DNA from: Eubacterium sp.
GTDB taxonomy: Bacteria > Bacillota > Clostridia > Lachnospirales > Lachnospiraceae
Direction of reading: 5' to 3'
Length of the DNA stretch: 64,000 nucleotides
Assembly (NCBI GenBank): GCA_017437905.1
Contig: JAFRWY010000040.1
Coordinates: forward strand, 33,299-97,298
The translations under genes were made by a program, and so were the position numbers. Below, in pieces: positions 1 to 56,391 of this stretch (within the stretch, counting starts at the first letter, position 1; every line of letters starts with the position of its first letter). The notes below the pieces were generated by a model. The model ran no database searches, was not told the origin of the DNA, and worked only from the letters and a program-made list of their open reading frames with translations.

Positions 1-1
1 C

Positions 2-835: not shown

Positions 836-867
836 CAATATACAGAAATGAAAATGAGGCATAACCC

Positions 868-1386: not shown

Positions 1387-1458
1387 ACCGGCCTTCTGCC
1401 GTATTCTAAAACCATGCAGGATCAGCACACCACCCGATCCCGTCCGGCATTCCGGACC

Positions 1459-2850: not shown

Positions 2851-2982
2851 CGTACCTGTCCTTTCATTTTGTCTTTTTTATTCTCCGGTAAAGTACTTCA
2901 CCGGAGCCTGCCGTCCGTCCGGAAACGAACCGCCTTTTTTCAGATAATGCCCGCTCCATACGGGCGGTGACGCGTGTCCCCG

Positions 2983-3924: not shown

Positions 3925-3960
3925 AATATATCCTCACTTTCAGTATTCAGGTTTCTCTCG

Positions 3961-5454: not shown

Positions 5455-5469
5455 AAATCAACTCACCTG

Positions 5470-6177: not shown

Positions 6178-6206
6178 GGGTTGCTCCTTTCTTCCGGCAC
6201 AAAATC

Positions 6207-6228
6207 CACTAAACTTTAGTGTATCATA
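6207..6228 (-). promoter_or_regulatory. -10 box plus palindrome ahead of the response regulator
   Basis: CACTAAACTTTAGTG (6207-6221) is a perfect inverted repeat with 7-bp arms and a single central base. It directly follows a good -10 hexamer on the minus strand, TATGAT (6223-6228), so it would overlie the transcription start of the regulator-kinase operon. No convincing -35 hexamer is visible, consistent with activation. Binding by the encoded regulator itself is an inference. Confidence 0.45.
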
Positions 6229-6297
6229 ATCTCTGATTTTTTTCCACTTTAACTATGAAGAAATGCACCGAAAATGCGGGACGGATTCCAAAGAAAG

Positions 6298-8661: not shown

Positions 8662-8676
8662 TTTTCCAACTCCTAT

Positions 8677-9483
8677 TTACCATGTATTCTTTATTACGTC
8701 CCCTTTGCTATACAGCGTCCCCTTTACATCTTCCCGCAGTGGCGTGAGCTGGTTCTGCTTCACCATATAAGCGATATTTTGGCGGGAACATCCGAGCAGG
8801 GAACAGCTTTCCGATGTATCCAGCGTATTCCTTTTCACGAAGGACACAAAATCGCTTCGCCTCAGCGGAATCTGTTCTCCGGTGGCATAAAGTCCGGTAG
8901 CCGGAAGATCTATGGAATCATTAAAGGTCACAAAATAACCTCCGGTTCCGATTTTACAGGATCGATACAGACTGTCATTCGTTAAAACCGCATCCATTCC
9001 TTCGATGGAATCAAATTTAGAAAGCTCCGACCGCTTCACCTTCCGTATCGTTTCATCCGCAAAGAAAATGAGAAGCGCTTCATCCTCTGTAATAAAACAT
9101 TCTACAACATTTTTCTTCATCCGCTCGGTCACATAATCCGGCAGCTCACTCAGTCTGCGTATGGCAAGGCTATCCTGAGAGCACCGCCCCTCCGCAATCT
9201 CGAGGATCTTCATTTCATCATAGGATCCGAGCTTATGATTCCTGAGGATAGCATCTATATTCTGCCTGTCGCTCGGAACAACCCTTGCCATAACCCAGAG
9301 CCGACTGATATCCCGCGGAATGGAGTAGATTCCTTCTCTGACATAACGGGAGAACAGGATCGGGGCAGTCCATTCATCCAGAGAAGCAGAAAGCTCAATC
9401 AGAAACGTATGCTCCTTTTCATAATACAGCAATACCCCTACCGATAAAAGATCTTCTTCATTTATGATCTCGTAAATCTTCAT
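8677..9483 (-). CDS. DUF2442-like and HTH protein, putative antitoxin/autorepressor of the HipA-like kinase
   Basis: A 268-residue protein with three parts: an unrecognised N-terminal region (1-125), a DUF2442-like beta-rich segment at about 128-215 containing ALLIFFADETIRKV, and a C-terminal excisionase/MerR-like helix-turn-helix (221-266) with LLGCSRQNIAYMVKQ as the likely recognition region. The ATG at 9483 was chosen because it overlaps the upstream kinase gene by 26 bases, which fits translational coupling, and because residues upstream of it do not look like protein. By context it would be the DNA-binding partner of the kinase and the probable reader of the two palindromes upstream. The antitoxin role is inferred. 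Base composition appears more AT-rich than in neighbouring genes. Confidence 0.75.
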   Translation of the reverse strand: MKIYEIINEEDLLSVGVLLYYEKEHTFLIELSASLDEWTAPILFSRYVREGIYSIPRDISRLWVMARVVPSDRQNIDAILRNHKLGSYDEMKILEIAEGRCSQDSLAIRRLSELPDYVTERMKKNVVECFITEDEALLIFFADETIRKVKRSELSKFDSIEGMDAVLTNDSLYRSCKIGTGGYFVTFNDSIDLPATGLYATGEQIPLRRSDFVSFVKRNTLDTSESCSLLGCSRQNIAYMVKQNQLTPLREDVKGTLYSKGDVIKNTW

Positions 9484-10282
9484 ACACCTTATACCTTTTT
9501 GATAGCATCTCCCAGATCTTTTGAAAATAAATATCCGACAGCGTACCATCCAATCCGTAAAACAGAAGCTCCCGATCCGCATCCTTCAACCCTGAGGAAA
9601 ATACATCTCCGGCATCGGATATCCGTTGCAGGTTTTCAAAACAGGACTTACTCCCGATATAATTGTTGCACCTCCTGTCCTCCATCACATCAAACCGCTC
9701 CGCCTCATCCTCCGACATGCAGGAACAAAGAAGGGACAATCCATGATCAAACATGGGGGCCATCCGGAGCTCATGCAAACGGGAATTGCTCAGAATCTCA
9801 ATATTTCCTCCGTGTCTGTCCCGATTCAGGATAAGATAATCCACAGCGATCATCTGATCGACTGTACGCTTCCATCCGTTTCTGACGCAGAATTCATAGT
9901 GATCTTCTCCGGGGTTCGCGTTCACCCTGTAATAATCATCGAGCGCCGCCTTGCTTTCCCCCTGGCTTTTGAAATCCTCAGAAGAACAAAGCCAGGTACG
10001 GAACCGCCTTCCATCCACCCGGATATCCGCGTGGATCAGTTCATATTCCAGATGCTCCACTCCAAGGATCGTAAGAAGCCTGTCCACAATGATCTCGTTG
10101 ATGCACTCATGACCGATCACACCGTACTCCGGATCAAAGTTGGACAGCTTGTAATACTTCTTCTTTTCCCCGATCACGGACCGGGCCTTAAGGAAGGTAC
10201 CGGCCGTTCCGCTGGATCCCCGAATATGCGACCACTTCAGATAGGTCAGATCCTGCACCTCTTTTGTAACATCCTTACGCAT
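9458..10282 (-). CDS. Compact HipA-like Ser/Thr kinase, putative toxin
   Basis: HipA kinases are toxins that phosphorylate translation factors such as aminoacyl-tRNA synthetases. This 274-residue version keeps a Gly-rich loop RGSSGTAGTFLKA (21-33), a candidate ATP Lys in YYKLS (45), the catalytic loop LILNRDRHGGN with N153, D155, H157 and N160, and a metal-binding DHG at 179-181. It is much shorter than classical HipA (about 440 residues) and seems to lack the N-terminal subdomain, as in HipT-type proteins. The ATG at 10282 is preferred over one nine codons upstream because GAGGAG lies seven to eight bases before it. The gene precedes its HTH partner, the reverse of hipBA order. The exact target cannot be read from sequence. 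Confidence 0.82.
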   Translation of the reverse strand: MRKDVTKEVQDLTYLKWSHIRGSSGTAGTFLKARSVIGEKKKYYKLSNFDPEYGVIGHECINEIIVDRLLTILGVEHLEYELIHADIRVDGRRFRTWLCSSEDFKSQGESKAALDDYYRVNANPGEDHYEFCVRNGWKRTVDQMIAVDYLILNRDRHGGNIEILSNSRLHELRMAPMFDHGLSLLCSCMSEDEAERFDVMEDRRCNNYIGSKSCFENLQRISDAGDVFSSGLKDADRELLFYGLDGTLSDIYFQKIWEMLSKRYKVYEDLRDHK

Positions 10283-10321
10283 AATCCACTCCTCACATTG
10301 CGGAGACATTCATTAAAACAA

Positions 10322-10381
10322 ATTTGACGCACGTCAAATATCTGCGTTTCATTATATCGCAATATTTGACGCGCGTCAAAT
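10322..10381 (-). promoter_or_regulatory. Toxin-antitoxin promoter with two palindromic operators
   Basis: Two near-identical 18-bp palindromes lie at 10322-10339 (ATTTGACGCACGTCAAAT) and 10364-10381 (ATTTGACGCGCGTCAAAT, perfect). Their centres are 42 bp apart, four helical turns. On the minus strand the distal palindrome contains the -35 box TTGACG (10374-10379). A 17-bp spacer leads to a perfect -10 box TATAAT (10351-10356), and the proximal palindrome covers about +5 to +22. This is the layout of a tightly autoregulated promoter for the kinase/HTH pair. Confidence 0.85.
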
Positions 10382-10411
10382 TCATTTTATTTTCAAACCC
10401 ACATCTGAACA

Positions 10412-10567
10412 CTACGGATTCATGCATACTCCATCGGCTCCGAACTTGTATTCTTTTCCGCTGATGGTTCTGGTCGCACCTGTTACCATAGCCCCATCTC
10501 TTCCGAGGTAGTACCAGTTGTCCTGGCAGTGCAGCCAACCGGTCTTCATAGCTCCATTCCCTGTATC
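10412..10567 (-). pseudogene. 3' remnant of a cell-wall-binding repeat protein
   Basis: In one minus-strand frame this stretch reads as the end of a choline/glucan-binding repeat protein: DTGNGAMKTGWLHCQDNWYY, then LGRDGAMVTG and KEYKFGADGVCMNP followed by TAG. The repeat pattern (Gly-Trp, Trp-Tyr-Tyr-Leu, Gly-Ala-Met) is the same as in the C-terminus of the secreted peptidase at 46010-48520. Homology stops abruptly near 10567, where the remnant of another gene on the opposite strand begins. The 5' part of the gene is missing. Confidence 0.7.
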
Positions 10568-10704
10568 ATGGATATGGATTGAAAAACATTGAGCAAATTG
10601 TTGACGAGCAAAGCGGCATCATTCTGATCGATAATGACAACGAAGATGATTTTCGGTCAACATCTCCATCCCTATCACCAATCCTGCAAAAAGACAATTC
10701 CTAA
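10567..10704 (+). pseudogene. 3' remnant of a GHKL-type histidine kinase (AgrC-like)
   Basis: On the plus strand the frame reads HGYGLKNIEQIVDEQSGII followed by an acidic tail and TAA at 10702. The Gly-Tyr-Gly-Leu-Lys-Asn-Ile motif is the last ATP-binding box of GHKL/AgrC-type sensor kinases. An in-frame TAG lies just upstream (10549-10551), and the recognisable part starts exactly where the opposite-strand cell-wall-binding remnant ends, so the rest of the kinase was lost at this junction. Confidence 0.6.
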
Positions 10705-10723
10705 CCCTGAAATAGCGCGAATC

Positions 10724-11227
10724 CTAACTGTCTCTTGCCCAGGACAGCCGGTGCAGCTCGCCTTCCCCCTCCAGCCCCGGGAAGTCCAGCTGGCGCAGGG
10801 CTTCGTAGGTTACAATGGAAACGGCGTTTGCCAGATTGAGGGACCGTTCCTCCGGAAGCATGGGGATGCGGATGCACTTCTCCGGGTGCTGCACCAGGAT
10901 TTCTTCCGGGATGCCGGCGCTTTCCTTTCCGAACATGAGGAAGCAGTCCTCCGTATACTTCACGTCGGAGTATCGTTGCTTAGCCTTCGTTGTGGCATAG
11001 AATATCTTCGCACCAGGATTCCGTTCCATAAAGTCATGATAATCCATATAGCGCGTAACATCGAGCCGGTCCCAATAATCGAGGCCGGCTCTTCGTATCA
11101 TCTTCTCATTCAAATGAAATCCCAGCGGCTCGATCAGATGCAGCCGGGCTCCCGTGATCACACAGGTTCTGCCGATGTTGCCCGTATTCGCAGGCATTTC
11201 GGGTTCGTAGAGGACTATATTTAACAT
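10724..11227 (-). CDS. trmL: tRNA (cytidine/uridine-34 2'-O)-methyltransferase TrmL
   Basis: A SPOUT-fold RNA methyltransferase that modifies the wobble base of certain leucine tRNAs using S-adenosylmethionine. The family hallmarks are all present: MLNIVLYEPEMPANTGNIGR at the start, LHLIEPLGFHL, DYWDRLDV, the loop LMFGKESAGIPEEI with the knot Gly, and IPMLPEERSLNLANAVSIV at the knotted C-terminus. The length of 167 residues is slightly above the family norm (about 155) because of a short tail. It is transcribed away from the aminotransferase gene in the same direction. Confidence 0.93.
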   Translation of the reverse strand: MLNIVLYEPEMPANTGNIGRTCVITGARLHLIEPLGFHLNEKMIRRAGLDYWDRLDVTRYMDYHDFMERNPGAKIFYATTKAKQRYSDVKYTEDCFLMFGKESAGIPEEILVQHPEKCIRIPMLPEERSLNLANAVSIVTYEALRQLDFPGLEGEGELHRLSWARDS

Positions 11228-11278
11228 ATGTTCACTCCAACATATTGAATCGGATCTGATATTTCAGAGATTTTTTCA

Positions 11279-13178: not shown

Positions 13179-14579
13179 CTACGTTTCAGGGCTCCGGGCT
13201 TCCTCAAATGCATCCCCGTCCGGCAGGTTCAGATATCGTTCCATATGGAAATTCTCCGCAGTCACAAGCCGGGCCTTCTCCTTCGTAAGCTGTCCCGCAT
13301 ATGCCCATGGAAATGATCCGCCGCTCCGTCCGTCAGCCCCCGGATCTGCATCCGGCTGAGTCTTCCGGATCGTCATGCTTCCCTCAAATTCGGCTGCCGT
13401 ATCCTCCGGAACCACTGCCAGCAGTCCGCCGGTTCCCAGAAGAAGGTACGGATTGATCTCCAGCGCCTCCGAAAGTTCGATCACGCTTTGCCGGACAGTC
13501 AGTCCCTCATGCCTTACGTGAATCCCGCAGCCGGCCGCTTCCGCCAGCTGGTAGAGCGCCGCATGAACACCTCCGTTTGAAACATCATGCAGAAATACCG
13601 CTCCTGCCTCCAGCGCCGCTGCCGCCTTCTCCTGTACGGAATAATCTTCAACCCCGTATTCCATGGTTTCGATATAGCTTTCCGGGAAATGCCGGCGCAG
13701 TTCTTCCCGGCGGCTCCTCGCCAGAAGATCCGCCCCAAGGCATCCCACCTCTCCGAGAAAATATACCCGGTCACCGGGTGCCGGTTTCCGCAGTAACCCG
13801 GATGCAGCATTTGCCGAACCGGGAGATTCCTCTTCCGTTCCCGCCGGCCGGTTCTGCACACGCTCGCCATCCGACGCTTCTCCGTCCTGCACACGCTCGC
13901 CATCCGGCGCTTCTCCGTCCTGCACATGCTCACCATCCGGCGCTTCTCCGTCCTGCACACGCTCGCCATCCGGCGCTTCTCCGTCCTGCACACGCTCGCT
14001 ATCCGACGGTTCTCCGTCCTGCACACGCTCGCCATCCGACGGTTCTCCGTCCTGCACATGCTCACCGGCCGGCAGGCGTCCCGTCAGAACCACCTGCACC
14101 AGACAGTCCGTGCCTTCCAGGAAATGTACCGTATTTCCGCCTACGATGGGACAGCTTCGCTCCGCGGCAAACTGTGCGAGCCGCTGCATCTCCCTTCGGA
14201 TCCTGCTCTCGGGGCAGGACATCCCCGCCACCAGAAGCACCTGTGCGGCCACGATCCTTCCCGCGTTCTGCCGTTTCGACACATCATCCGGTGACACGCC
14301 GGTAGCAAATATGCCCTTCGTCGCCAGCTGATTCTCGGCCGTGATCCATGCCGCCTCCCCAGCTGTCAACGGATAATCCTCCGGAAAACGGGAAGTGGGC
14401 TGAGCGCCCACTGCCTGTATCTCTGTAATGTCTCCATTTTGAAAGATGGCTGCGTCGTAACCGATCGCAGCCCCTTCCAAAACTCCCTCCGGCTTACGGC
14501 GAATATGCTTCAGCACACTTTGCCGGAGCATCCGTCCCAAGGCCGGTTTGAAATATGAATTATTCATAGTTTGTTTCAC
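13179..14579 (-). CDS. AIR synthase-related (PurM/HypE-like) protein with internal 11-residue repeats
   Basis: A 466-residue member of the PurM/HypE ATP-binding superfamily. The N-terminal half has GYDAAIFQNGD and the conserved GVSPDDVSKR region; the C-terminal half has GAVFLHDVSNGGVHAALYQLA and LLLGTGGLLAVVPED as in HypE. No [NiFe] hydrogenase genes are nearby, so a HypE role is not supported and the reaction is unknown. Between the two halves (about residues 172-245) sit six copies plus part of a seventh of an 11-residue unit related to GERVQDGEAPD. The start used is GTG at 14579; an ATG four codons later is possible. Confidence 0.8.
   Translation of the reverse strand: MKQTMNNSYFKPALGRMLRQSVLKHIRRKPEGVLEGAAIGYDAAIFQNGDITEIQAVGAQPTSRFPEDYPLTAGEAAWITAENQLATKGIFATGVSPDDVSKRQNAGRIVAAQVLLVAGMSCPESRIRREMQRLAQFAAERSCPIVGGNTVHFLEGTDCLVQVVLTGRLPAGEHVQDGEPSDGERVQDGEPSDSERVQDGEAPDGERVQDGEAPDGEHVQDGEAPDGERVQDGEASDGERVQNRPAGTEEESPGSANAASGLLRKPAPGDRVYFLGEVGCLGADLLARSRREELRRHFPESYIETMEYGVEDYSVQEKAAAALEAGAVFLHDVSNGGVHAALYQLAEAAGCGIHVRHEGLTVRQSVIELSEALEINPYLLLGTGGLLAVVPEDTAAEFEGSMTIRKTQPDADPGADGRSGGSFPWAYAGQLTKEKARLVTAENFHMERYLNLPDGDAFEEARSPET
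13854..14066 (-). repeat. In-frame minisatellite, 33-bp unit, about 6.4 copies
   Basis: Units begin at 13854, 13887, 13920, 13953, 13986 and 14019, with a partial one at 14052. Copies differ by a few substitutions, which produce the residue changes His/Arg, Pro/Ala and Ser/Pro in the encoded 11-residue unit. Because the unit is a multiple of three, copy-number change leaves the host reading frame intact. It is contiguous, without spacers, and so is not a CRISPR array. Confidence 0.95.
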
Positions 14580-14650
14580 TTTTGTTCTCTATCCGCTCGG
14601 CAATATCCTTCGTTCAAGGAAATGTTACCGGGAACAGCTTCTGCAGATCA

Positions 14651-16222
14651 TCATTCCGGAAGATCTTCTCCGGGGTTTCCTCCGGGTCCCTCCGGATCTC
14701 CGGGCTCTTCCGGCTGTTCCTGACCGCCGGGTTCCTCCGGACCTCCCGGTCCTCCCGGGCCTTCCGGATCTCCGGGTTCCTCCGGCTGTTCCTGACCGCC
14801 GGGTTCTTCCGTATCCTCGATTGCTTCCGTGACCTCGGTCTCCTCCGTGGTCTCACTTTCTTCCGTGGATTCCGCTTCGGGTCCCTTCTTGATCTTCTTC
14901 GGCGTTGCGCTGTATTCGCTCCGGTTGATCAGAACACTGTCCTGCAGCTCGCCGTCATAGTAAACATATTTCCAAAGCTCTGTCCGGTAACCGGTCTTAC
15001 CGTTGGATACGACCTCCTCGGTCCCCGGCGCCATTTCCGGATCCACCGTAACCTCATCCTCCGGAGGATCGATCTTCTCCACGATGTTGTTATCAAATTC
15101 GATCGTTCTTCTCGGATCACGGTATTCATGTCCGTAAATGTTGGCGGTGATATATCCCTCATCCCGGTTGCAGTCGATCTCAATATAGATCGGGTATTCC
15201 AGATTGTTCCGGAAGATCAGATCCAGATAACCGCCTGCCATGGTTGCATCATAGGACAGCGGTACGTATGATACCGGAAGTCCGTGATAATCACGCTTCA
15301 CGATCTCCACCTCTGCCCAGAGCAGGGCATTGTACAGTGTGGTGGACATCTGGCAGACACCGCCGCCGATTCCCTGTACCACCTCATTGTTTACAAATAC
15401 ACCGGCCATGGCATAACCGTTATAATCCTCGATGGGATCGATGGTATAATATGTGGATACCTCTTCTCCCGGATATACGATCTTACCGTTCATCAGCTCG
15501 GATGCACGGGCGATGTTCTGATTTCTTCCGCTGTCCCCGCTGCCGAATTCGGTGGTGTAGGTTCCCAGCAGATCTGTAATATAGGACAGCGCTTCCGTCT
15601 GTCCGTTCTCATTGTTCACGATCACCAGCGGGATCTCCAGTTCGGAATGATCCCAGTCGGTGGAAAGTACGGCATCTACCGCTTTGGTTGTGGCTTCCGC
15701 ATCCAGACGCACGCTCTTCTCTCCGGGCACGACCGATACCTCGGTCTTGCTCTTCTTGATCAGCTTTGCATCCTCGGAACCATCGAACACTTTCTTCAGC
15801 TGGTCGTTGACCAGAGTCTTGATCCGTGCATTGCTGACCGATCTCCGGATTCCCACATCCAGTGCCTGATCCGTCTGCTGCTCTCTGTAACGCTTCAGGA
15901 TGCTTCCCGCATTTCCGTAGCCGGCCGCCTCACGGACCGCACCGTCCACATCACCGAAGAAACCCAGTTCTCCCAGCGTAGTCTCCACATCGCCATACTC
16001 ACTGGTCAGCTTGATAGCCACTTCCTTCAGCTGTGTCTCGCGTTTCTCCAGCATGTTCCGGGCCTGTGCTTCCGAGTAACCGCCCAGGTTCATGCCATCC
16101 ACGGAGATGCACTCCTGAATCGTCAGTCCGGCCGGAGCCGCCTCTATGGGGGCCGGCACATAAATCAAAAGGAACGCAGCCACCAGCAGAGCCGTAAGCA
16201 GACATCTTCCTCTTCTCTTCAT
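14651..16222 (-). CDS. Exported VanW-family protein with Pro/Glu/Gly-rich tail
   Basis: A 523-residue secreted or membrane-anchored envelope protein. A signal/anchor segment covers residues 5-28, then a peptidoglycan-binding-4-like region (about 35-215). The VanW domain (about 230-370) contains GDSGRNQNIARASELMNGK, YPGEEVSTYYTI, VQGIGGGVCQMSTTLYNA and YDATMAGGYLDL. A G5-like segment follows (YRTELWKYVYYDGEL). The tail from about 445 is Glu/Thr- then Pro/Gly-rich, and the block GGQEQPEEPGDPEGPGG occurs twice. VanW domains are found in vancomycin clusters and widely in clostridial envelope proteins; the biochemical role is not established. Downstream of a small membrane protein gene on the same strand. 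Confidence 0.88.
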   Translation of the reverse strand: MKRRGRCLLTALLVAAFLLIYVPAPIEAAPAGLTIQECISVDGMNLGGYSEAQARNMLEKRETQLKEVAIKLTSEYGDVETTLGELGFFGDVDGAVREAAGYGNAGSILKRYREQQTDQALDVGIRRSVSNARIKTLVNDQLKKVFDGSEDAKLIKKSKTEVSVVPGEKSVRLDAEATTKAVDAVLSTDWDHSELEIPLVIVNNENGQTEALSYITDLLGTYTTEFGSGDSGRNQNIARASELMNGKIVYPGEEVSTYYTIDPIEDYNGYAMAGVFVNNEVVQGIGGGVCQMSTTLYNALLWAEVEIVKRDYHGLPVSYVPLSYDATMAGGYLDLIFRNNLEYPIYIEIDCNRDEGYITANIYGHEYRDPRRTIEFDNNIVEKIDPPEDEVTVDPEMAPGTEEVVSNGKTGYRTELWKYVYYDGELQDSVLINRSEYSATPKKIKKGPEAESTEESETTEETEVTEAIEDTEEPGGQEQPEEPGDPEGPGGPGGPEEPGGQEQPEEPGDPEGPGGNPGEDLPE

Positions 16223-16249
16223 ATCCTCATCTCTTTTCCGGGACGATCC

Positions 16250-16360: not shown

Positions 16361-16477
16361 TTTCAACTCCTTCTCAATGTATGTCACGCGCGTGTATCGT
16401 GTCCCTGCATAAATGCCAGGGGATTCTCCGTCCGAAATGACATATCATATGTCTATACTTAGTTCCATCCATGTTAT

Positions 16478-16506
16478 GTTCTACACGTTTCTTCTGCAAT
16501 TGTCAA
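16478..16506 (-). promoter_or_regulatory. Possible sigma-A promoter for the small protein/VanW operon
   Basis: On the minus strand TTGACA (16501-16506) is followed after 17 bases by TAGAAC (16478-16483). The -35 is perfect, the -10 is weak. The rest of the gap between 16361 and 16593 shows no gene. Confidence 0.4.
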
Positions 16507-16593
16507 ATCATTTAATGGATTCTTCACAGAATTCCGTAAATGTGCCGACGCCCGGAGATTCACGTGCTGCTTTTTGGTGATTTTGTATGATGG

Positions 16594-17277
16594 CTATGCC
16601 TTCTGATCCCGCTTCCCGTTCCTCTGTCCGGCTTTCTTTCCGGCAGGTGCGGATCCGGTCATGCAGCATTCCCGAAGGATACACGCTTCACACTTCGGCC
16701 GTCCCGACACGCACCAGGTCCGTCCCACGGCAATGGCCTGAACATTGTACAGCGTCCACTGCTCCTTCGGCAGGATCTTCATCAGATCGAACTCCACCTT
16801 CGTGGGATCGGTCTCTTTGGTAAGACCGGTCAGCCGGGACACCCGCTTCACATGGGTATCCACCACGATGGAATCGATGTGGAAGATATTCCCGCGGACC
16901 ACATTTGCGGTCTTTCTTCCTACTCCGGGCAGCGATGTCAGTTCATCGATGTCCGACGGAACCTCTCCGTTATACCGGTCCAGAAGCGCCTGTGCACAGG
17001 CCTTCAGGTTCTTTGCCTTGTTCTTGTAAAAACCCGTGGAATAAATGTCCTTCTCCAGCTCGGAGAGATCCGCATTTGCAAAATCCTCCACGGTCCGGTA
17101 CTTCTGATAAAGTTCCTTCGTGACCAGATTCACCCGGTCATTCGTACACTGTGCTGAAAGGATCGTTGCAAACAACAGCTGCCACGGGGTCTCGAAATGC
17201 AGATAGGTGAACATCTCCGTTCCGTATTCACGATTCAGCGCCTCCGTCACCAGACGGGCCCGTTCCTTACGTGTCAT
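16594..17277 (-). CDS. nth: Endonuclease III (DNA glycosylase/AP lyase)
   Basis: Removes oxidised pyrimidines and cleaves abasic sites in base excision repair. The 227-residue protein has ILSAQCTNDRVN at the N-terminus, the helix-hairpin-helix LTSLPGVGRKTANVV with the catalytic Lys, the catalytic Asp in VVDTHVKRVSRL, and a C-terminal 4Fe-4S motif of the form C-x6-C-x2-C-x5-C beginning at WCVSGRPKCEAC. The ATG at 17277 was chosen because a GGGGGA site precedes it; a longer open frame upstream runs into the interspersed repeat. A short basic tail (KKAGQRNGKRDQK) follows the cluster. Confidence 0.94.
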   Translation of the reverse strand: MTRKERARLVTEALNREYGTEMFTYLHFETPWQLLFATILSAQCTNDRVNLVTKELYQKYRTVEDFANADLSELEKDIYSTGFYKNKAKNLKACAQALLDRYNGEVPSDIDELTSLPGVGRKTANVVRGNIFHIDSIVVDTHVKRVSRLTGLTKETDPTKVEFDLMKILPKEQWTLYNVQAIAVGRTWCVSGRPKCEACILRECCMTGSAPAGKKAGQRNGKRDQKA

Positions 17278-48630: not shown

Positions 48631-48653
48631 GACATAGAGAGAGGAAATATGAC

Positions 48654-48693
48654 AAACGACCGGATTCCTGTTCCCACAGGTTCCCGGTCGTTT
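48654..48693 (-). terminator. Hairpin at the end of the hexuronate operon
   Basis: Perfect 10-bp arms AAACGACCGG and CCGGTCGTTT, with an inner CCTGT/ACAGG stem. On the minus strand it follows the uxaC stop by about 30 bases and runs into TTTGTCATATTT. The T-run is short, so termination strength is uncertain. Confidence 0.65.
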
Positions 48694-48724
48694 CTCATGC
48701 TCCCCGATCATAACATTCGTACAT

Positions 48725-50023
48725 TCAGTTTTCGGTGCGTCGGAAGAATCTCACTGCATTTTCATAGCAGACATCCTGCACAAGTCTTCCCAGATTCTCC
48801 ATATCCGCCGGCCATAAACCGTCTTCCACCATCCTTCCCAGTTTACGGCAGAGGATCCTTCGGAAATACTCATGTCTCGGAAATGAAGTGAAGCTTCTGG
48901 AATCCGTGAGCATACCCACAGACGCCGCAAGACTTCCCGTCTCCATCAGCTCATCCAGCTGATCCCCGATCCCCCGGAGCATATCGTTGAACCACCAGGC
49001 TGCGCCATACTGCATCTTCGGCGCATAGTTCACTGCCATGGTGGAAAGCATCCGGTTATCCGCCGGATTCAGATTATACAGAATGGTCTTCGGAAGCTTG
49101 TCCCTGCTCTCAAGCTCCCTGAAAAAAGCACTGAGGGCGGCGGGATCCGTGGTCTTTCCCACGCTGTCACCGCCTGCATCGGGACCGAAGGCCGAAAAAA
49201 GCTTCGTGGAATTATTCCGGATCGCGCCCAGATGCAGCTGCATCACGATCCCCCGCTCCGCATAGGCCGTTCCCAGTTTCAGAAACAGATCCCGGAACCC
49301 TGCATCCGTAAGGTACGGGAATTCCGGGAAACCGTGATCAGACACAAGACAGCCCTGCTCCAGGAAATGATCCAGCGCCCGGATCAGTGCCTCCGACAGG
49401 TCCTCCGTATCATATTTTCCGCAAAGAGCCTTGGCCGCTTCTCCGTGAGGCTCCGTAAGATACCTGTCCGGGCGGAAAGAGGGGCAGACCTGAAAACGGA
49501 TGGTCTCATCCTCCCGGATCCGCCGGTGCCACTCCAGTGTATCTGCCGGATCGTCCGTGGTACAAAGCACCCGGACGTTCATTTTCTCCAGCAGTGACAC
49601 GGTGTCGAACCCGTCCCCGGCAAGAAGTTCCTCCGTCTTTTCCCATATTTCCTGCGCCGTATCCGGTCCGAGAAGGGTGTCGATCCCGAAATACCTCTGC
49701 AGCTCCAGATGGATCCAGTGATACAGCGGATTTCCCACGAGCCGGGGAAGTACGCCAGCCCAGGCCCGGAACTTCTCATAGTCCCCGGCCTCTCCGGTGA
49801 TATATCGTTCCTCCACCCCCAGAGCCCGCATGGCCCGCCATTTGTAGTGGTCCGTCTCCAGCCAGAGTTCCGTCAGATTGCGGAAGCGCCGGTGCTCCGC
49901 AATATCCTTCGGAGACAGATGGTTATGATAATCAAAGATCGGCCTGTCAGCGGCATTCTTAAAATATAGCTGCCTTGCAAAGTCCGTATCCAGCAGATAA
50001 TTCGAATCCGGGAATTTTGTCAT
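48725..50023 (-). CDS. uxaC: Glucuronate/uronate isomerase UxaC
   Basis: Isomerises D-glucuronate to D-fructuronate (and galacturonate to tagaturonate). The 432-residue protein, a little shorter than the usual 460-470, has the metal-binding start FDYHNHLSPKDIAEHR, the segment VRVLCTTDDPADTLEWH, LVSDHGFPEF, MQLHLGAIRNNST and MLTDSRSFTSFPRHEYFRR. It is the last gene of a five-gene operon (kinase, gnd, SDR, LarA-like, uxaC) and starts three bases after the LarA-like gene. It supplies the entry reaction of the proposed pathway. Confidence 0.95.
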   Translation of the reverse strand: MTKFPDSNYLLDTDFARQLYFKNAADRPIFDYHNHLSPKDIAEHRRFRNLTELWLETDHYKWRAMRALGVEERYITGEAGDYEKFRAWAGVLPRLVGNPLYHWIHLELQRYFGIDTLLGPDTAQEIWEKTEELLAGDGFDTVSLLEKMNVRVLCTTDDPADTLEWHRRIREDETIRFQVCPSFRPDRYLTEPHGEAAKALCGKYDTEDLSEALIRALDHFLEQGCLVSDHGFPEFPYLTDAGFRDLFLKLGTAYAERGIVMQLHLGAIRNNSTKLFSAFGPDAGGDSVGKTTDPAALSAFFRELESRDKLPKTILYNLNPADNRMLSTMAVNYAPKMQYGAAWWFNDMLRGIGDQLDELMETGSLAASVGMLTDSRSFTSFPRHEYFRRILCRKLGRMVEDGLWPADMENLGRLVQDVCYENAVRFFRRTEN

Positions 50024-50026
50024 ATG

Positions 50027-51373
50027 CTACCCTCTTCCAAACGTCGTACAATAAACATCGCGTTTCCCCGGTTTCTTTCCATGTTCCCGGTTCGGATCAT
50101 GAAAACGCTCCCGGTCGATCCAGAGCCCCAGCGCCGGGTTGGGGATATAAAATACCTCTTCCCCGTTCACCATGTTCCGGCCATAGACCAGCTTCTCAGG
50201 ATCATAGATCTTTACCATATCGTCATATGCAGCCGCATGGAATCCCACCGCCTCCATCTCCTCCGCGGAAATCCTCCGTAATGCATAGGTAACGGAAAAC
50301 CTCCCTTCCGTGGAGCCGTGGATCAGATGTGCCGCCGCACTCATATTCTCCCGGAGATCCTGATTCTCCGGCTTCCGGAACGCCTCCAGAACAGCCTCAC
50401 GCCCCCGGTAACCGTATTTCCGGATCAGCCGGTCACACTCCGGATCCTCTCCGAACCGCCGAACGCCGGGTGCCAGTATGATCAGCTCCCCTCCGTCCGC
50501 CATCAGCATCCGTGTCCTGTAGATCGCCTTATTCCCCAGCCAGGTACTGTGGTACTCCTCCGGATCCAGCCGGACCACGCATTTCTTTATTCCCCGGTCA
50601 ATAAAATCGATATTCTTCTCCTGTGCAAGCCGGATCGCTTCGGTAAGGCATTCCCTGCCCTCTCCGATGAAAAGTCCGTGGGTCCGTACCCGTCCTTCGG
50701 GCGCAGTGGTGACCGTCAGCACCCAGAGCACCGGCCGTTCCGCCAGAAAATGCTCCGCTGCATAGTCAAAGATCTTCCGCACCGGCGTATGATCCCTTCC
50801 CATCATGCGTTCCATGCCGTAAACCGCACCGATCATATGGGAGCTGTTGATCATTTCCGCACCGCCGACCCCCACGAAGATATTCTTCGCATGATTCGAC
50901 ATGCCGATCACCTCATGCGGTACAACCTGTCCCGGAGAAATGATCAGGTCATATTCCGGATCCATGATCCGCCGGTTCACCTCCACAATGACACGCTTCT
51001 CCCAGAGGCCCTCCGTGATCTCTGACACATACTCCGCCGGAACCTCTCCGATCCGGATTACATCCTTCCGCCAGTCATGGTCGATAAAGCAGGTGCCGGG
51101 AATATCCCCGAACATGGCCTTCCGCTGCTCCTCCGACACCGGCGCATGGGTTCCAAGGGCCGGAAGGATATCCACCACGGCCCCGCGCTCAGCCAGTGTA
51201 TGATAATAGATCTGCGTGATCCGTCCCGCATTGGAATGTACCCGCGTATAATCCGGCGGTACCATCAGAACCTTCCGGAGTGTCCGCCCTTCCAGAGACA
51301 TAAGCAGTGCCTCCCGGATCTCCGCTTCGGAAAGCCCCTGCCAAGACGGGCTGATCCTGTAAATATCCTTCAT
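50027..51373 (-). CDS. LarA-family nickel-pincer epimerase/racemase, candidate gluconate/mannonate 2-epimerase
   Basis: LarA enzymes use a nickel-pincer nucleotide to invert the hydroxyl-bearing C2 of 2-hydroxy acids by hydride transfer. This 448-residue homologue keeps the likely functional set: PPDYTR with D41 and R44, GTHAP with H76, PHEVIGMSNHAKN with H153 and cofactor Lys K163, and SSH with H179. It is encoded between a fructuronate reductase-like SDR and uxaC, next to 6-phosphogluconate dehydrogenase. Because mannonate and gluconate differ only at C2, and a gluconate 2-epimerase activity is known within the LarA superfamily, interconversion of these two is the best guess. The cofactor genes larB, larC and larE are not in the window. 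Confidence 0.85.
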   Translation of the reverse strand: MKDIYRISPSWQGLSEAEIREALLMSLEGRTLRKVLMVPPDYTRVHSNAGRITQIYYHTLAERGAVVDILPALGTHAPVSEEQRKAMFGDIPGTCFIDHDWRKDVIRIGEVPAEYVSEITEGLWEKRVIVEVNRRIMDPEYDLIISPGQVVPHEVIGMSNHAKNIFVGVGGAEMINSSHMIGAVYGMERMMGRDHTPVRKIFDYAAEHFLAERPVLWVLTVTTAPEGRVRTHGLFIGEGRECLTEAIRLAQEKNIDFIDRGIKKCVVRLDPEEYHSTWLGNKAIYRTRMLMADGGELIILAPGVRRFGEDPECDRLIRKYGYRGREAVLEAFRKPENQDLRENMSAAAHLIHGSTEGRFSVTYALRRISAEEMEAVGFHAAAYDDMVKIYDPEKLVYGRNMVNGEEVFYIPNPALGLWIDRERFHDPNREHGKKPGKRDVYCTTFGRG

Positions 51374-51533
51374 ACTTCATCCTCACTGCATGCCGCTGTC
51401 CGCTCTGCCGTACTGCATGCATACCGTTTTCTGCTCCACCCGCAGTGTAATCCGCACTATGTGTCATCTCACGGTTCAAACGCCGCTCTTCATATCATCC
51501 CACACATACCCCGCGCTATGCGTCATTCCCGGC

Positions 51534-52385
51534 TCACACCCCGGAGTATGCGTTAAAGCCGCCATCCACCGGCAGCACAACCCCGTTAACAAAGCCTGAG
51601 CAGCTATCATCCACCAGGAACAGCAGCGCTCCGATCAGCTCCTCCGGTTTGCCGAAGCGTCCCATGGGGGTTGCCGCCAGGATCTTCCCGGCCCTGGCCG
51701 TAGGTTCACCGTCCGGCTGCATGAGCAGCGACGCATTTTGTGCCGTCAGGAAGAAGCCCGGCGCGATGGCATTGCACCGGATCCCGCTCTTCGCGAAATG
51801 CACCGCCAGCCATTCCGTCAGATTCGACACGCCGGATTTTGCTGCGGAATAAGCCGGAATCCGGGTCAGCGGCGTAAAGGCATTCATGGAGGAAATGTTG
51901 ATGATACATCCCTTCTCCCGTTCCGCCATATCCACGGCGAAGACCTGTGTCGGAAGGATCGTTCCCTGAATATTCAGGGAAAAGACCTCGTCGATGGCCT
52001 CCCGGGACAGATCAAAGAAGCTCTTCTTCTCCGGATCTCTCAGGGTATCCACGGAGAAATACTCATCATCTGCCGTAGCCGCCGGCCGGTTTCCTCCCGC
52101 CCCGTTGATCAGGATATCACAGGGTCCGAAGCATTCCAGAATCTCCTCATGTACCCGTTGAAGCCCTTCCTTATCCAGTACATCCACCGAAAAGCCTCTG
52201 GCCACACCGCCTTCCCGGGCGATCTCCTCCTCCAGGGAATCCAGCTTCTCCCGGGAGCGTCCCAGGATAGCCACCTTTGCACCGCAGGCAGCCAGTGCCC
52301 TGCAGAACCCGCTGCAAAGAACGCCCGTTCCGCCTGTTACCACTGCCACCTTATCCGTTAAATCAATCCTGACCGGTAACTTCAT
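51534..52385 (-). CDS. SDR oxidoreductase, likely fructuronate reductase (mannonate dehydrogenase)
   Basis: A 283-residue classical short-chain dehydrogenase. The cofactor motif is TGGTGVLCSGF, the NAG motif is INGAGGN, the catalytic Ser lies in INISSMNAFTPL, and Tyr/Lys in YSAAKSGV; the C-terminus has FVNGVVLPVDGGFNAYSGV. It resembles the SDR-type D-mannonate oxidoreductases of Firmicutes, which reduce fructuronate to mannonate. Position between gnd and the LarA-like gene and upstream of uxaC supports this. AAGGGAAGGA precedes the ATG at 52385. The 160-base gap after it contains two related copies of CCGCRCTATGYGTCAT (51452 and 51511) of unknown meaning. Confidence 0.88.
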   Translation of the reverse strand: MKLPVRIDLTDKVAVVTGGTGVLCSGFCRALAACGAKVAILGRSREKLDSLEEEIAREGGVARGFSVDVLDKEGLQRVHEEILECFGPCDILINGAGGNRPAATADDEYFSVDTLRDPEKKSFFDLSREAIDEVFSLNIQGTILPTQVFAVDMAEREKGCIINISSMNAFTPLTRIPAYSAAKSGVSNLTEWLAVHFAKSGIRCNAIAPGFFLTAQNASLLMQPDGEPTARAGKILAATPMGRFGKPEELIGALLFLVDDSCSGFVNGVVLPVDGGFNAYSGV

Positions 52386-52431
52386 AATATCCTTCCCTTC
52401 ATTCTCTGATCTGCCGGTCATGGTGACCGGC

Positions 52432-53883
52432 CTATGCGTTATAGGTCGTTGCGGAAATATCCCCGCCGTGGCCCGTCCAGTTCGTATGGAAGAACCTGCC
52501 GCGTTCCGCATCCTTTCGCTCATAGGTATGCGCTCCGAAATAATCCCGCTGGGCCTGCAGCAGATTTGCCGGAAGATCCTCCGTGGTATATCCGTCAAAG
52601 TAGCTGAGGGCAGAGGTAAATGCCGGCGCCGGAACACCGTAGGTCACGGCCGTGGCACATACCCTGCGAAAGGCAGGGATCAGCTTTTGGATCTCCTCCC
52701 TGAAGTAGGGATCCAAAAGAAGATTCGTAAGCTGCGGATCCGCTGCAAAAGCGTCCCGGATCTTCCCCAGGAAGACCGAACGGATAATACAGCCGCCCCG
52801 CCACATCATGGCGATGCCGCCGTAATTCAGATTCCAGCCGTAGGTCTCTGCCGCTGACCGCATCAGGGCATATCCCTGGGTGTAGGAAATGATCTTGCTG
52901 GCATAAAGCGCTTTACGGATATCCTCCACCAGTTCCGCCTTATCCCCCGTATATTCCGGAATCTCCCGGGGGTAGAGGGCCGATGCGCTGACCCGCTCCT
53001 CCTTCATGGCAGAGAGACATCTGGAGAATACCGCCTCACTGATCAGCGTCAGCGGAACTCCTTCGTTCAGAGCGGATATACCGGTCCATTTCCCGGTCCC
53101 CTTCTGTCCTGCCGTATCCAGGATCTTCTCCACCAGGGGTTCTCCGTCCTCATCCTTAAATTTCAGGATCTCTCCGGTGATCCGGATCAGATAGGAATCC
53201 AGCTCCGTCTGATCCCAGGACCGGAAGATATCACTCATCTCATCATCGGAAAGCCGGAGCAGTGAACGCATCAGCTGATAGGCTTCGCAGATCAGCTCCA
53301 TATCTCCGTATTCGATGCCGTTATGGACCATTTTCACAAAATGTCCTGCACCGTTCTCACCCACCCAGTCGCAGCAGGGTGTACCGTCCTCCGTCTTCGC
53401 CGCTATGGACTGGAAGATGGGCTTCACTCTCTCCCATGCTGCAGGGGATCCTCCGGGCATCATGGACGGACCGAGGAGCGCTCCTTCTTCGCCTCCGGAA
53501 ACGCCTGTCCCGATGAAGAGCTTGCCGCAGGACTCCACCAGGGCCGTCCGACGCATGGTGTCCTCATAGTTTGAGTTTCCTCCGTCCACCAGGATGTCTC
53601 CATCCTCCAGCAGCGGAAGGAGTGCCTCTATGACCATGTCCACCGGCTTTCCGGCACGGATCATCAGAAAGACCACCCGCGGCTTCCGGATACTGTCCAC
53701 CAGACTCTGATAATCATAACTTGCAATGAAATTCTTCCCTGCTTCCTTCTCCATGAAAGCGTCCGTCATTTCCGGTTCCTTGTTGTAAACCGCAACCGTG
53801 AACCCCTTCGACTCCATATTTCTTGCGAGGTTAGACCCCATGACCGCAAGGCCTACCATACCGATATCCGCTTTTCTTTCCAT
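52432..53883 (-). CDS. gnd: 6-phosphogluconate dehydrogenase (decarboxylating)
   Basis: Oxidises 6-phosphogluconate to ribulose 5-phosphate and CO2, making NADPH or NADH. The 483-residue protein has the dinucleotide motif IGMVGLAVMGSNLARNM, the signature GVSGGEEGALLGPSMMPGG, the catalytic Lys in GHFVKMVHNGIEYGDM, and the C-terminal substrate-binding tail FHTNWTGHGGDISATTYNA. The ATG at 53883 follows AAAGGATC. Its place in a hexuronate operon is unusual; it makes sense if the operon ends in 6-phosphogluconate rather than in KDPG. The sugar kinase gene lies 122 bases upstream. Confidence 0.95.
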   Translation of the reverse strand: MERKADIGMVGLAVMGSNLARNMESKGFTVAVYNKEPEMTDAFMEKEAGKNFIASYDYQSLVDSIRKPRVVFLMIRAGKPVDMVIEALLPLLEDGDILVDGGNSNYEDTMRRTALVESCGKLFIGTGVSGGEEGALLGPSMMPGGSPAAWERVKPIFQSIAAKTEDGTPCCDWVGENGAGHFVKMVHNGIEYGDMELICEAYQLMRSLLRLSDDEMSDIFRSWDQTELDSYLIRITGEILKFKDEDGEPLVEKILDTAGQKGTGKWTGISALNEGVPLTLISEAVFSRCLSAMKEERVSASALYPREIPEYTGDKAELVEDIRKALYASKIISYTQGYALMRSAAETYGWNLNYGGIAMMWRGGCIIRSVFLGKIRDAFAADPQLTNLLLDPYFREEIQKLIPAFRRVCATAVTYGVPAPAFTSALSYFDGYTTEDLPANLLQAQRDYFGAHTYERKDAERGRFFHTNWTGHGGDISATTYNA

Positions 53884-54005
53884 GTATCCGATCCTTTCCT
53901 GATCTCTCTCCCTGACATCTCTTCCGATGCCCGTCCGCTTCCTCTCCGGATGCCCTGCCTTTGTTTTAACTCTGCAGTGCAATTATCTCTCCGGTTCCGG
54001 CCCTG

Positions 54006-55088
54006 TTATCTCTGAACCCTGGCATTTCCGGCATAGATATCCCATACCTGCTTCTCATCCGCCGGTTCTGCATAATCATTGAGGCTGGTCACCACCAACG
54101 CTCCGCAGGCCCAGCCGAACTGTACCCATTTCTCCGGCTCAAAACCGCTCACGATACCGTAGAGCAGGCCGCCGGTGAAGGCATCTCCACCACCGATCCG
54201 GTCCAGAATGTCGATCTCTCTCGGTTCCTCCACATACCAGTCATCTCCCGCCAGCATGACTACTCCCCAGAGATTCCGGTTGGCGGAGATCACTTCCCTG
54301 AGGGTTGTTGCAAAGACCTGTGCATTCGGATAGGCAGACTTCACCTCACGAATCATCTGCTTAAAATTCCCGATCTTCCCATCCAGTCCCTGCCCGCCTG
54401 CTTCAGGTCCCCGGAAGCCGAGACAGAGCTGGAAATCCTCTTCATTTCCCACCAGAATGTCCGCCAGCCCGGCAATCTCCCGAAAGGCGTTCCGGAGTTC
54501 CTCCTCCCTGCCCTTCCAGAAGCTGGCCCGATAGTTCAGATCAAAGGAAACCAGGGTTCCGTAGCGCTTTGCTTCCTTCGCCAGAGCGATGCAGCACCGG
54601 GTCGTCTCCTCACTCATGGCGGCGATCAGTCCGGAAATATGGAAGATTCCCACTCCCACCTTCCCGAAGATCCGTTCCGTATCAAACTCCTCCGCGGACA
54701 GGGTTCTGCCCACCTCTCCGGCCCGGTCATTGAACACCCGCGCCGCACGAAGGCCGTAACCGGAATCCGCGATATTGAACTGGTGACGGTATCCCCAGGG
54801 GCCCCCCTGCGGAACCGACACTCCCTCATAATCGATATTTCTCGCCCGAAGCTCCGAACGGATCAACGCGGCGATGGGGCTTCCCTCCACAAATTTCGTC
54901 AGCGCCACCGCCCTTTTTCCCAGGGACGAAGCAACATTACACACATTGGTTTCCGCAGATGTGGCCTGCATATAGAACCGGCGGCTGTTATGCACCCCCA
55001 TCCGGTCCTCCGGCGTGATCCGTACTCCCATGCTGGTTACACATCCGATGGCATATCCGGCATCTTCTCTTAATTTCGGTAGCATCAT
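54006..55088 (-). CDS. PfkB-family sugar-acid kinase (gluconate or 2-keto-3-deoxygluconate kinase)
   Basis: A 360-residue ribokinase-fold kinase. It has NVASSLGKRAVALTKF, GIFHISGLIAAMSEE, SFDLNYRASFWKGREE, ILVGNEEDFQLCLGF and the anion-hole/catalytic loop DRIGGGDAFTGGLLYG. These fit the KDG-kinase-like branch of PfkB. In the usual hexuronate route it would make KDPG, but neither the dehydratase nor the aldolase is encoded here, whereas gnd follows directly; phosphorylation of gluconate to 6-phosphogluconate is therefore also plausible. The start (55088 or the adjacent ATG at 55085) follows AGGAGGGAG. First gene of the operon. Confidence 0.85.
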   Translation of the reverse strand: MMLPKLREDAGYAIGCVTSMGVRITPEDRMGVHNSRRFYMQATSAETNVCNVASSLGKRAVALTKFVEGSPIAALIRSELRARNIDYEGVSVPQGGPWGYRHQFNIADSGYGLRAARVFNDRAGEVGRTLSAEEFDTERIFGKVGVGIFHISGLIAAMSEETTRCCIALAKEAKRYGTLVSFDLNYRASFWKGREEELRNAFREIAGLADILVGNEEDFQLCLGFRGPEAGGQGLDGKIGNFKQMIREVKSAYPNAQVFATTLREVISANRNLWGVVMLAGDDWYVEEPREIDILDRIGGGDAFTGGLLYGIVSGFEPEKWVQFGWACGALVVTSLNDYAEPADEKQVWDIYAGNARVQR

Positions 55089-55146: not shown

Positions 55147-55178
55147 ATTTTAGCATATTCCGATCACGTTCCGTTATC
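55147..55178 (-). promoter_or_regulatory. Putative promoter and operator of the hexuronate operon
   Basis: An extended -10 (TGC followed by TAAAAT on the minus strand, 55147-55155) lies about 60 bases upstream of the kinase start. Just upstream of it, GATCACG-TTC-CGTTATC (55162-55178) is an inverted repeat with one mismatch, placed between the -10 and where the -35 should be. This is a plausible operator, but no regulator gene is in the operon. Confidence 0.45.
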
Positions 55179-55209
55179 AAAAATCAGTGCATTTTACCGC
55201 TTTTATCAC

Positions 55210-55238
55210 AAAAAAACCACCGGCCGAACCGGTGGTTT
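55210..55238 (-). terminator. Intrinsic terminator after the AraC/transglutaminase scar
   Basis: Perfect arms AAACCACCGG and CCGGTGGTTT with a 5-base loop; on the minus strand it runs into seven T residues. It separates the scar region from the hexuronate operon promoter. Confidence 0.9.
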
Positions 55239-55312
55239 CAATGTTCTCCCCCTCAAATGATTGATTCCCATAATGTATCTCGATCAAATCAGGTTCATGC
55301 GTCTTGAAATGT

Positions 55313-55813
55313 TCAGCATAAACCGTAAATCATCATACCCTGTTTCTCCCTAAGACGTATTTTCCTTACATTTCTGTTCATCTTTTTCCGCCCGTAATGA
55401 ACATAGGCGATATTTTTGATCTTGCTCCATGTCTGCGGATGGCCCTTAAAAAAGGCATCCGGATCATCATAGACTCCGAAATCCTTTACCACGGATTCGT
55501 TCTGTACAAAAATATCCTCACCATGCCATTCAAGAGAAAGAGTACACAGATCCTTTACCGAAACAGCATAACGGGCAAAAGGCCCTTTTACAACTTTATA
55601 CTTATTCTTTATTCCTTTGATATACGGCTCATCTGTGATAACTCCTTCCAGCGCTATCCAGTCACCCTTATAATATACCTCTGCCCAGGTGTGTACAATC
55701 GTACCCGGTGCCAGTACGGAAATAAGCCCGGAAGTTACTCCTTCCTGAAAATGTTTATCCACTTCCGAACCATGTAATCTGCAGGGAATTCCGACGGCCC
55801 TGAGCAATGCCAT
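55313..55813 (-). pseudogene. C-terminal fragment of a transglutaminase-like protein
   Basis: The frame begins at MALLRAVGIPCRLHGSEV, the part of a transglutaminase-like domain that normally follows the catalytic Cys helix. The later His and Asp/Glu regions are present (IVHTWAEVYYKGDWIALEGV), but the upstream half with the catalytic Cys is missing. The preceding sequence belongs to an AraC-type regulator. The fragment is therefore unlikely to be an active enzyme, although it could still be translated from the TGATG overlap with the regulator stop. A terminator follows. Confidence 0.7.
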
Positions 55814-56391
55814 CAGCTAAGATATTTCTTGATGGGGATTCCGACCTGTTCGGAAAAAAGATGTGAGAATCTGCTGGAAGATAAGCAGAGTTTTCCGGCA
55901 TACTCATCTATGGAGTGATCTTCACAGTCACAGTGATCCAACATATCCAGGAATTCGGCAATACGCTCGTCAAGAACCTTATTTGCAGGCACAAGATCAA
56001 AACACCCGTACATCGCATCTTTAAGCTCGGGATAAACCACTTTGTCCGATTCATCTTTCATAAGAAGCACTTTCTCTTTCAGCGTCCCCAGGCCTGATCT
56101 GTCAATAATCAAATAATCCCGTCCCTTAAGAAGTTCATCCAGAGCCATTCCAAAATCCGATACCGGTTCTATGATAACCGTAAGGCAGATTTTTTTGTCC
56201 GCTTTGAAAGAATGACTGACATTCTTATTGACCAGGACACATTCAGCATCGACTTTGTTTTTCCCGATCTTAATATTAAGTTTATCTTCCGCGCATAAAA
56301 AGAACTGCATCATCGCATGACTATGTGAAGATGCATCCATGGAGTCAGTCAATATGGATATTCTGTCCAAGTCCCAATAAATCCGATTCAT
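55813..56391 (-). pseudogene. AraC-family regulator truncated between its two HTH motifs
   Basis: A 192-residue product with an N-terminal cupin-like sensing region and then the start of an AraC DNA-binding domain (SIDEYAGKLCLSSSRFSHLF, then SEQVGIPIKKYLS), stopping there. Normal AraC proteins continue with about 50 more residues holding the second helix-turn-helix. The truncation coincides with the start of the transglutaminase fragment (TGATG overlap), so this looks like a deletion joint. It may still be expressed but should bind DNA poorly. Confidence 0.7.

Follow-up and report, generated by a model that had tools for sequence, protein, structure and literature searches.

We analysed a 64,000-nucleotide stretch of DNA from Eubacterium sp. 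(Lachnospiraceae; assembly GCA_017437905.1, contig JAFRWY010000040.1, positions 33,299 to 97,298), called the window below. It carries an operon by which glucuronate very probably reaches the pentose phosphate pathway, with a nickel-dependent sugar-acid epimerase taking the place of the textbook dehydratase route. From the list of open reading frames (ORFs) and profile searches, we observed five genes on the minus strand, in the order of transcription PfkB-family kinase, gnd, short-chain dehydrogenase/reductase (SDR), LarA homologue and uxaC. A preliminary description, made from the sequence of the window, had named the same five same-strand genes, and all of them were located as ORFs and matched to their families by profile. 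It had also stated that the operon holds neither a mannonate dehydratase nor a 2-keto-3-deoxy-6-phosphogluconate (KDPG) aldolase, and the gene content bears this out. The genes are as follows:

54006..55088, minus strand: PfkB-family sugar-acid kinase of the LarAH18-linked clade, a proposed gluconate or mannonate 6-kinase (PF00294, 78 bits against a cut-off of 26)
52432..53883, minus strand: gnd, 6-phosphogluconate dehydrogenase, decarboxylating (TIGR00873, 726 bits against 427)
51534..52385, minus strand: SDR of the D-mannonate oxidoreductase / fructuronate reductase type (NF006132 'D-mannonate oxidoreductase', 424 bits against 281)
50027..51373, minus strand: LarAH18 nickel-pincer-nucleotide epimerase, a proposed D-mannonate/D-gluconate 2-epimerase (NF052594, 608.4 bits against 500)
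48725..50023, minus strand: UxaC, glucuronate (uronate) isomerase (PF02614, 526 bits; NF002794, 491 bits against 387)

For PfkB, gnd and SDR we chose the start codons by reading; the mechanical ORFs of all three are longer. The intergenic gaps, in operon order, are 122, 46, 160 and 3 bases.

We consider it probable, though well short of certain, that these genes encode a complete dehydratase-free route for D-glucuronate in which the epimerase acts before the kinase. UxaC would convert glucuronate to fructuronate, and the SDR would reduce fructuronate to D-mannonate. The LarAH18 protein, carrying a nickel-pincer cofactor supplied by LarB, LarC and LarE encoded elsewhere, would then invert C2 of D-mannonate to yield D-gluconate, which the PfkB-type kinase would phosphorylate to 6-phosphogluconate. 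Finally, Gnd would decarboxylate 6-phosphogluconate to ribulose 5-phosphate, from where the carbon would enter the pentose phosphate pathway. Gnd can regenerate the reductant that the SDR consumes, so that glucuronate can reach pentose phosphate in a redox-neutral way. We infer all the enzymatic activities, as well as the order of epimerase and kinase, from the gene content, the protein families, the absences at profile level, the cofactor genes and the conserved module.

The absences and the cofactor genes were sought in the genome of the window itself (3.09 Mb in 133 contigs, rated 100% complete with 4.12% contamination) by profile searches run alongside 14 control genomes, and every profile matched in some of the controls. 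There was no match to UxuA (PF03786) in a search that did not extend to enolase-type mannonate dehydratases, and none to the KDPG/KHG aldolase (PF01081) in one that did not extend to DHDPS-type aldolases of 2-keto-3-deoxygluconate (KDG). At the level of PF03786 and PF01081, the genome lacks the combination of UxuA and KDPG aldolase that marks the Ashwell pathway. The only match to 6-phosphogluconate dehydrogenase (6PGD) was the operon gnd, and the only Lar_N match was the operon LarA homologue. As the search for glucose 6-phosphate dehydrogenase (G6PD) gave no match, Gnd has no recognisable G6PD supply in this genome. The genes larB (14007-14651), larC (14705-16243) and larE (16384-17163) lie adjacent on contig C58 of the genome (G000), each above its cut-off. 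The searches for uxuA and eda and for the three cofactor genes, which the preliminary description had proposed as checks, thus came out as its conversion of glucuronate to ribulose 5-phosphate predicts, and that interpretation is further supported by an exchangeable reductase and by a GntE2-like model of the epimerase.

The epimerase belongs to group 18 of the LarA superfamily (LarAH18), whose model NF052594, 'nickel-dependent putative hexonate epimerase', is labelled NPN_18_hexonate and graded 'putative' in NCBIfam. The residues that bind the nickel-pincer nucleotide (NPN) and those that catalyse the reaction, R44, K163, H179, D41, H76, H153 and K282, were found in the window protein and in 42/42 aligned LarAH18 proteins. 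They correspond to R75, K184, H200, D72, H108, H174 and K298 of LarA, as judged from section 7 of the available text of PMC7583248 and an alignment with 4NAR. The predicted structure has the LarA fold, and when it was compared with the Protein Data Bank by VIA-align, Thermotoga maritima GntE2 fitted far better than lactate racemase, with 29% identity over the structural alignment. The hexonate signature described in the same text (EV/S after the catalytic His, a Trp in alpha11 and A/V in alpha14; PMC7583248) was mapped by us onto the window protein, and we observed E154-V155 and W278 in 42/42 proteins and A or V at position 346 in 39/42. That text only hypothesises a substrate for LarAH18; the operon context makes mannonate and gluconate, or their 6-phosphates, the likely pair. 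Of the sub-cut-off LarA matches considered as group 20 comparators, the seven proteins scanned were not GntE but relatives of malate/lactate racemases or of LarAH10, and were set aside.

LarAH18 above the cut-off occurs in 58 of the 391 genomes of the class. We compared the 42 of these that are at least 90% complete with 17 genomes lacking LarAH18, a non-random set with 15 members from the window's own family; two genomes with sub-cut-off fragments (G002 and G128) were placed in neither set. 6PGD was matched in 42/42 LarAH18 genomes and in 0/17 of the others, a contrast that lies partly between families because 15 of the 17 belong to one. G6PD was matched in 20 of the 42, and UxuA was less frequent with LarAH18 (13/42) than without it (11/17).

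We then compared gene neighbourhoods, as the preliminary description had proposed, at 80 loci from named genomes; these are the best 80 of 581 and are biased towards close relatives. A neighbour was counted when it lay at most 6 kb away on the same strand as LarAH18 with at least 40% identity. We observed gnd at 61 loci and pfkB at 43 (always with gnd), followed by SDR (25), UxaC (20), a UxuB-type reductase (10), UxaE (10) and UxuA (2), while 14/80 loci had none of the twelve queried genes. At the 48 loci with ample flanks, gnd was found at 40 and pfkB at 35, and the association of gnd and pfkB with LarAH18 is not due to chance. The loci come from Clostridia, Spirochaetes, Kiritimatiellae, Verrucomicrobia, Victivallales, Acholeplasmataceae and one Bacilli metagenome-assembled genome (MAG); the linked kinase turned up in Clostridia, Spirochaetes, Acholeplasmataceae and at one Kiritimatiellae locus.

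The same loci bear on the entry point. The SDR and the unrelated UxuB never occurred together at the 61 gnd-linked loci (p 0.011), and a reductase was also present at 19/20 UxaC loci. The lone UxaC locus without a same-strand reductase (L081) carries UxuB on the opposite strand. As the two reductases replace each other, these results suggest that mannonate is the entry point of the module, the best evidence being that the mannonate-forming enzyme is exchangeable for an unrelated one. UxaE (PF16257) lies within the module at 10 loci and probably extends it to galacturonate in relatives. In the flanks of three relatives we found no clear uronate transporter; an ABC-transporter ATPase and dehydrogenases were found there.

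The kinase is above no NCBIfam kinase cut-off, and its scores against the KDG-kinase models (NF052444, 27.1 of 400 bits; NF040938, 55.3 of 400; NF041332, 98.5 of 440) are below theirs. At E 0.001, PfkB was the only domain found, with neither a P-loop gluconokinase nor an FGGY domain. The closest solved structure by sequence is the KDG kinase 2AFB (116 bits), which we take to be from T. maritima. In 41/41 cluster kinases, the KDG-kinase motif GGxEANV is replaced by TSAExNV (TSAETNV in the window) and the GxYxxE strand by WGxRHQFN (WGYRHQFN in the window); both segments presumably contact the substrate, by analogy with the Thermus KDG kinase. Residues T43, S44, W98, R101, H102, Q103 and N105 were found in 41/41 clade members and in 0/4 aligned KdgK-like rows. 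A KdgK-like kinase occurs in addition to the cluster kinase at five loci (L064, L079, L081, L089 and L093). At L064 (approximately 1-11245), both mannonate branches stand together, with UxuA, UxuB, KdgK and Eda next to PfkB, Gnd, a HAD-like gene and LarAH18. Judged by sequence, the cluster kinase is a clade of its own related to the KDG kinases and, as this co-occurrence, notably at L064, indicates, no stand-in for KdgK. The KDG-specific kinase that the preliminary description had named as a result counting against it did not turn up at this level, the protein being no typical KDG kinase. Gluconate and mannonate are indistinguishable as its substrate from sequence alone.

The two middle steps could also run in the opposite order, with the same inputs, outputs and genes: PfkB would be a mannonate 6-kinase, and LarAH18 would epimerise 6-phosphomannonate to 6-phosphogluconate. 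We regard this order as doubtful, but there is a precedent. The galacturonate pathway of Lactobacillus suebicus likewise runs from mannonate through 6-phosphogluconate to ribulose 5-phosphate, is redox-neutral and bypasses UxuA, KdgK and KdgA; it differs in that the kinase acts before a 6-phosphomannonate 2-epimerase, its genes are unidentified and it feeds phosphoketolase (PMC6978723, available text). Both activities were demonstrated in cell extracts, in which mannonate gave no gluconate when ATP was absent and, when it was present, gave 6-phosphomannonate and some 6-phosphogluconate; the genome holds uxuA, kdgK and kdgA, but none of their products was detected (same source). On the other side, the sugar-acid LarA homologues characterised so far in the available texts of PMC7583248 and PMC11770544 use free mannonate or gluconate. 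The preliminary description had put the epimerase first; this follows the characterised LarA homologues but is not established, given that L. suebicus extracts phosphorylate mannonate first.

The residues of the LarAH18 site point both ways. R286, R288, H352, S354 and R358 are invariant in LarAH18, their counterparts in GntE2 being K, Q, N, R and T, and K319 (41/42) is E in GntE2. The substrate-side alpha14 region carries an invariant loop, H-(G/S)-S-x-x-x-R, in place of NVRGAGT in GntE2, which counts in favour of the kinase acting first. The five invariant residues could form a phosphate site, a hint guessed from sequence and weakened by the fact that two of the five positions are already basic in GntE2 (Lys at that of R286, Arg at that of S354), so that the gap in charge is smaller than it appears. 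LarAH18 also retains the glutamate found just after the catalytic His of GntE2, and it has the GntE2 fold. Because the structural result favours a GntE-like enzyme but leaves the order undecided, our estimate for the epimerase acting first is unchanged.

Two further explanations fare much worse. It is very improbable that LarAH18 epimerises another aldonate in an operon that serves some other acid, such as a hexonate taken up from outside, while UxaC and the SDR handle side substrates. The gnd-linked loci that have no reductase gene nearby (29/61) would fit such a function, but its product must suit Gnd, a 6-phosphogluconate enzyme; moreover, UxaC and a mannonate-type SDR share the window operon, with 3 bases between LarAH18 and uxaC, and the SDR and UxuB replace each other. 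Equally hard to credit is an ordinary Ashwell-type operon, with PfkB as KDG kinase, the dehydratase and aldolase elsewhere and LarA and gnd as bystanders: KDG kinases are the nearest named relatives of PfkB, but it falls far below their cut-offs with two of their motifs replaced, a KdgK-like kinase is present in addition at five related loci, gnd goes with LarAH18, and a plain Ashwell operon was rejected because the genome has no match to UxuA (PF03786) or PF01081, the dehydratase and aldolase families that the search covered.

Several observations, besides the L. suebicus extracts, weigh against the dehydratase-free route with the epimerase first. The replacement of R286, R288, K319 and R358 by K, Q, E and T in GntE2 means that the substrate end of the LarAH18 site may differ from that of GntE2. 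In the titles, abstracts and other parts of the open-licence literature available, there is no assayed activity for any LarAH18 enzyme or for the linked kinase clade. The 13 LarAH18 genomes with UxuA hold the dehydratase too. As 29 of the 61 gnd-linked loci lack a fructuronate reductase nearby and gnd itself is absent from 8/48 loci with ample flanks, the module is not everywhere tied to uronates, or even to gnd. Of the Kiritimatiellae, Verrucomicrobia and Victivallales loci checked, some on short contigs, gnd was present at 3/13 and pfkB at 1/13. With gnd missing from most of these loci, and a reductase from so many gnd-linked ones, LarAH18 may play a different part in other organisms.

The cofactor genes raise a further difficulty. 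Unlike the window genome, which has all three, 30/42 LarAH18 genomes are without larB, larC and larE at curated cut-offs, which leaves the source of the cofactor unexplained for most relatives. The NPN residues are invariant in the 8 of those 30 that were aligned, including a single-contig genome (G042), and the larC query had no match within the 80 loci. As a control, we took the 60 genomes with sub-cut-off LarAH18 matches, assumed to hold other LarA homologues: LarC was matched, in some cases weakly, in 36/60, compared with 12/42 (Fisher p 0.002), and a match was lacking in 24/60. With 30/42 LarAH18 and 24/60 control genomes lacking matches, it seems that many of these bacteria hold a LarA protein but no cofactor genes, the more so where that protein is LarAH18. 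They may scavenge the cofactor, make it with synthesis genes that escape recognition or use another one. In five genomes of one family (G052, G177, G198, G219 and G276), frames of 211-261 aa resemble LarC weakly and in part, which suggests a divergent short LarC-like protein in that family.

Three phosphatase types (Cof-type HAD, HAD_2 and PHP domain) recur beside gnd and larA18 at 25/80 loci, including L032, L038, L048, L054, L101, L103 and L108; they are less frequent at loci with a fructuronate reductase (6/32) than at those without one (17/29). A broader proposal, which we hold to be unlikely, is that LarAH18 and its partner PfkB are the missing 6-phosphomannonate 2-epimerase and mannonate kinase genes, so that a LarA-superfamily enzyme would act on a phosphorylated sugar acid, that the neighbouring phosphatases correct misphosphorylated acids and that many rumen and gut lineages lacking larB/larC/larE run on the nickel-pincer cofactor of their neighbours.

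The preliminary description did not know of the pathway being described as a single route. This claim falls, as Rodionova et al. (2012) had proposed for Thermotoga that GntE converts mannonate to gluconate for entry into the pentose phosphate pathway (as cited in the available texts of PMC6978723, PMC7583248 and PMC7953866), and LarA homologues, GntE2 among those assayed, have been shown to act as mannonate/gluconate 2-epimerases (PMC7583248). In T. maritima, the UxaR-regulon route comprises GntE (LarAH20/GntE2), GntK and Gnd (PMC7583248; Rodionova et al. 2012 as cited there). The window shares with it linked genes for a fructuronate reductase, a LarA homologue, a sugar-acid kinase and Gnd. 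It differs in having LarAH18, a PfkB kinase, an SDR reductase and UxaC inside the operon, and in having no UxaE, UxuA or eda there. T. maritima GntK belongs to another fold than PfkB. With the Ashwell (isomerase) pathway, UxaC-UxuB-UxuA-KdgK-Eda, the operon has UxaC and a fructuronate reductase in common, whereas the dehydratase and the PF01081 aldolase are unmatched. What is new relative to the Thermotoga idea is the LarAH18 epimerase group and the unrecognised kinase; titles and opening abstract lines of the open-licence literature gave no description of a LarAH18-PfkB-Gnd operon.

As for the origin of the operon, the MutS2 of this contig shows 47-60% identity to that of 15 same-family genomes and 39-45% to that of 17 others (main match). 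As it is nearest to same-family genomes, the contig belongs to its family, and a contaminant contig was rejected; a GH94-like protein from the contig was a poor family marker. In the 15 same-family genomes, LarAH18 above the cut-off, 6PGD and G6PD were each matched in 0/15, UxuA in 10/15 and LarC in 12/15. A tree built from 61 LarAH18 proteins places the window protein with L032 (support 100/96) and then with L053 (99/94), both from Clostridia MAGs of ruminants. L032 has the gene order of the window plus a HAD-like gene between gnd and SDR, with identities of 82% for PfkB, 86% for Gnd, 77% for SDR, 76% for LarAH18 and 68% for UxaC. The absence from same-family genomes and the grouping with L032 and L053 led us to reject vertical inheritance and make lateral acquisition likely, the simplest reading being that the operon was gained as a whole and relies on larBCE genes that were already there. 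Eight same-family genomes (G026, G087, G137, G181, G202, G295, G313 and G331) carry larB/larC/larE, and the LarAH18 model finds nothing in them at E 0.001.

The operon does not stand out by its GC content (0.55-0.58). The following signals flank it:

55152..55180, minus strand: sigma-70-like promoter TTGATA-17-TATGCT from a consensus scan, about 60 bases upstream of the kinase start
55213..55239, minus strand: terminator-like hairpin at the end of the upstream transcript (terminator scan and folding, z -4.7)
48645..48700, minus strand: strong hairpin just past uxaC, probably the transcript end (-30.9 kcal/mol, z -7.0)

The promoter scan found 8 such sites against 4.6 expected in shuffles and is weak when taken alone; the terminator scan made no call at the downstream hairpin. 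Upstream of the operon (55313-56391), AT-richer DNA holds a 192-aa ORF with a weak AraC-type regulator match and a short transglutaminase-like ORF, which may be gene remnants. Within the operon, Gnd has NKE near the start of its dinucleotide fold (53740-53820), a place taken by NRT, within the first 60 residues, in 43/50 linked Gnd proteins. This motif presumably bears on NADP preference, so that an altered preference is possible.

These results give the LarAH18 nickel-pincer group and an unnamed PfkB kinase clade a concrete proposed function. If the proposed route is true, these anaerobes would turn glucuronate into pentose phosphate and CO2, not into pyruvate and triose phosphate, and galacturonate would probably follow the same route where UxaE is present. 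The redox and ATP balance of uronate fermentation would be changed, and an annotation naming the kinase KdgK, from which an Entner-Doudoroff-type route is read, would mislead. In LarAH18 genomes without larB/C/E, cofactor sharing or a new maturation route becomes directly testable. Relatives occur in many rumen and gut bacteria, and the named carriers of LarAH18 include rumen and gut Clostridia, Spirochaetes, Kiritimatiellae, Verrucomicrobia and Acholeplasmataceae.

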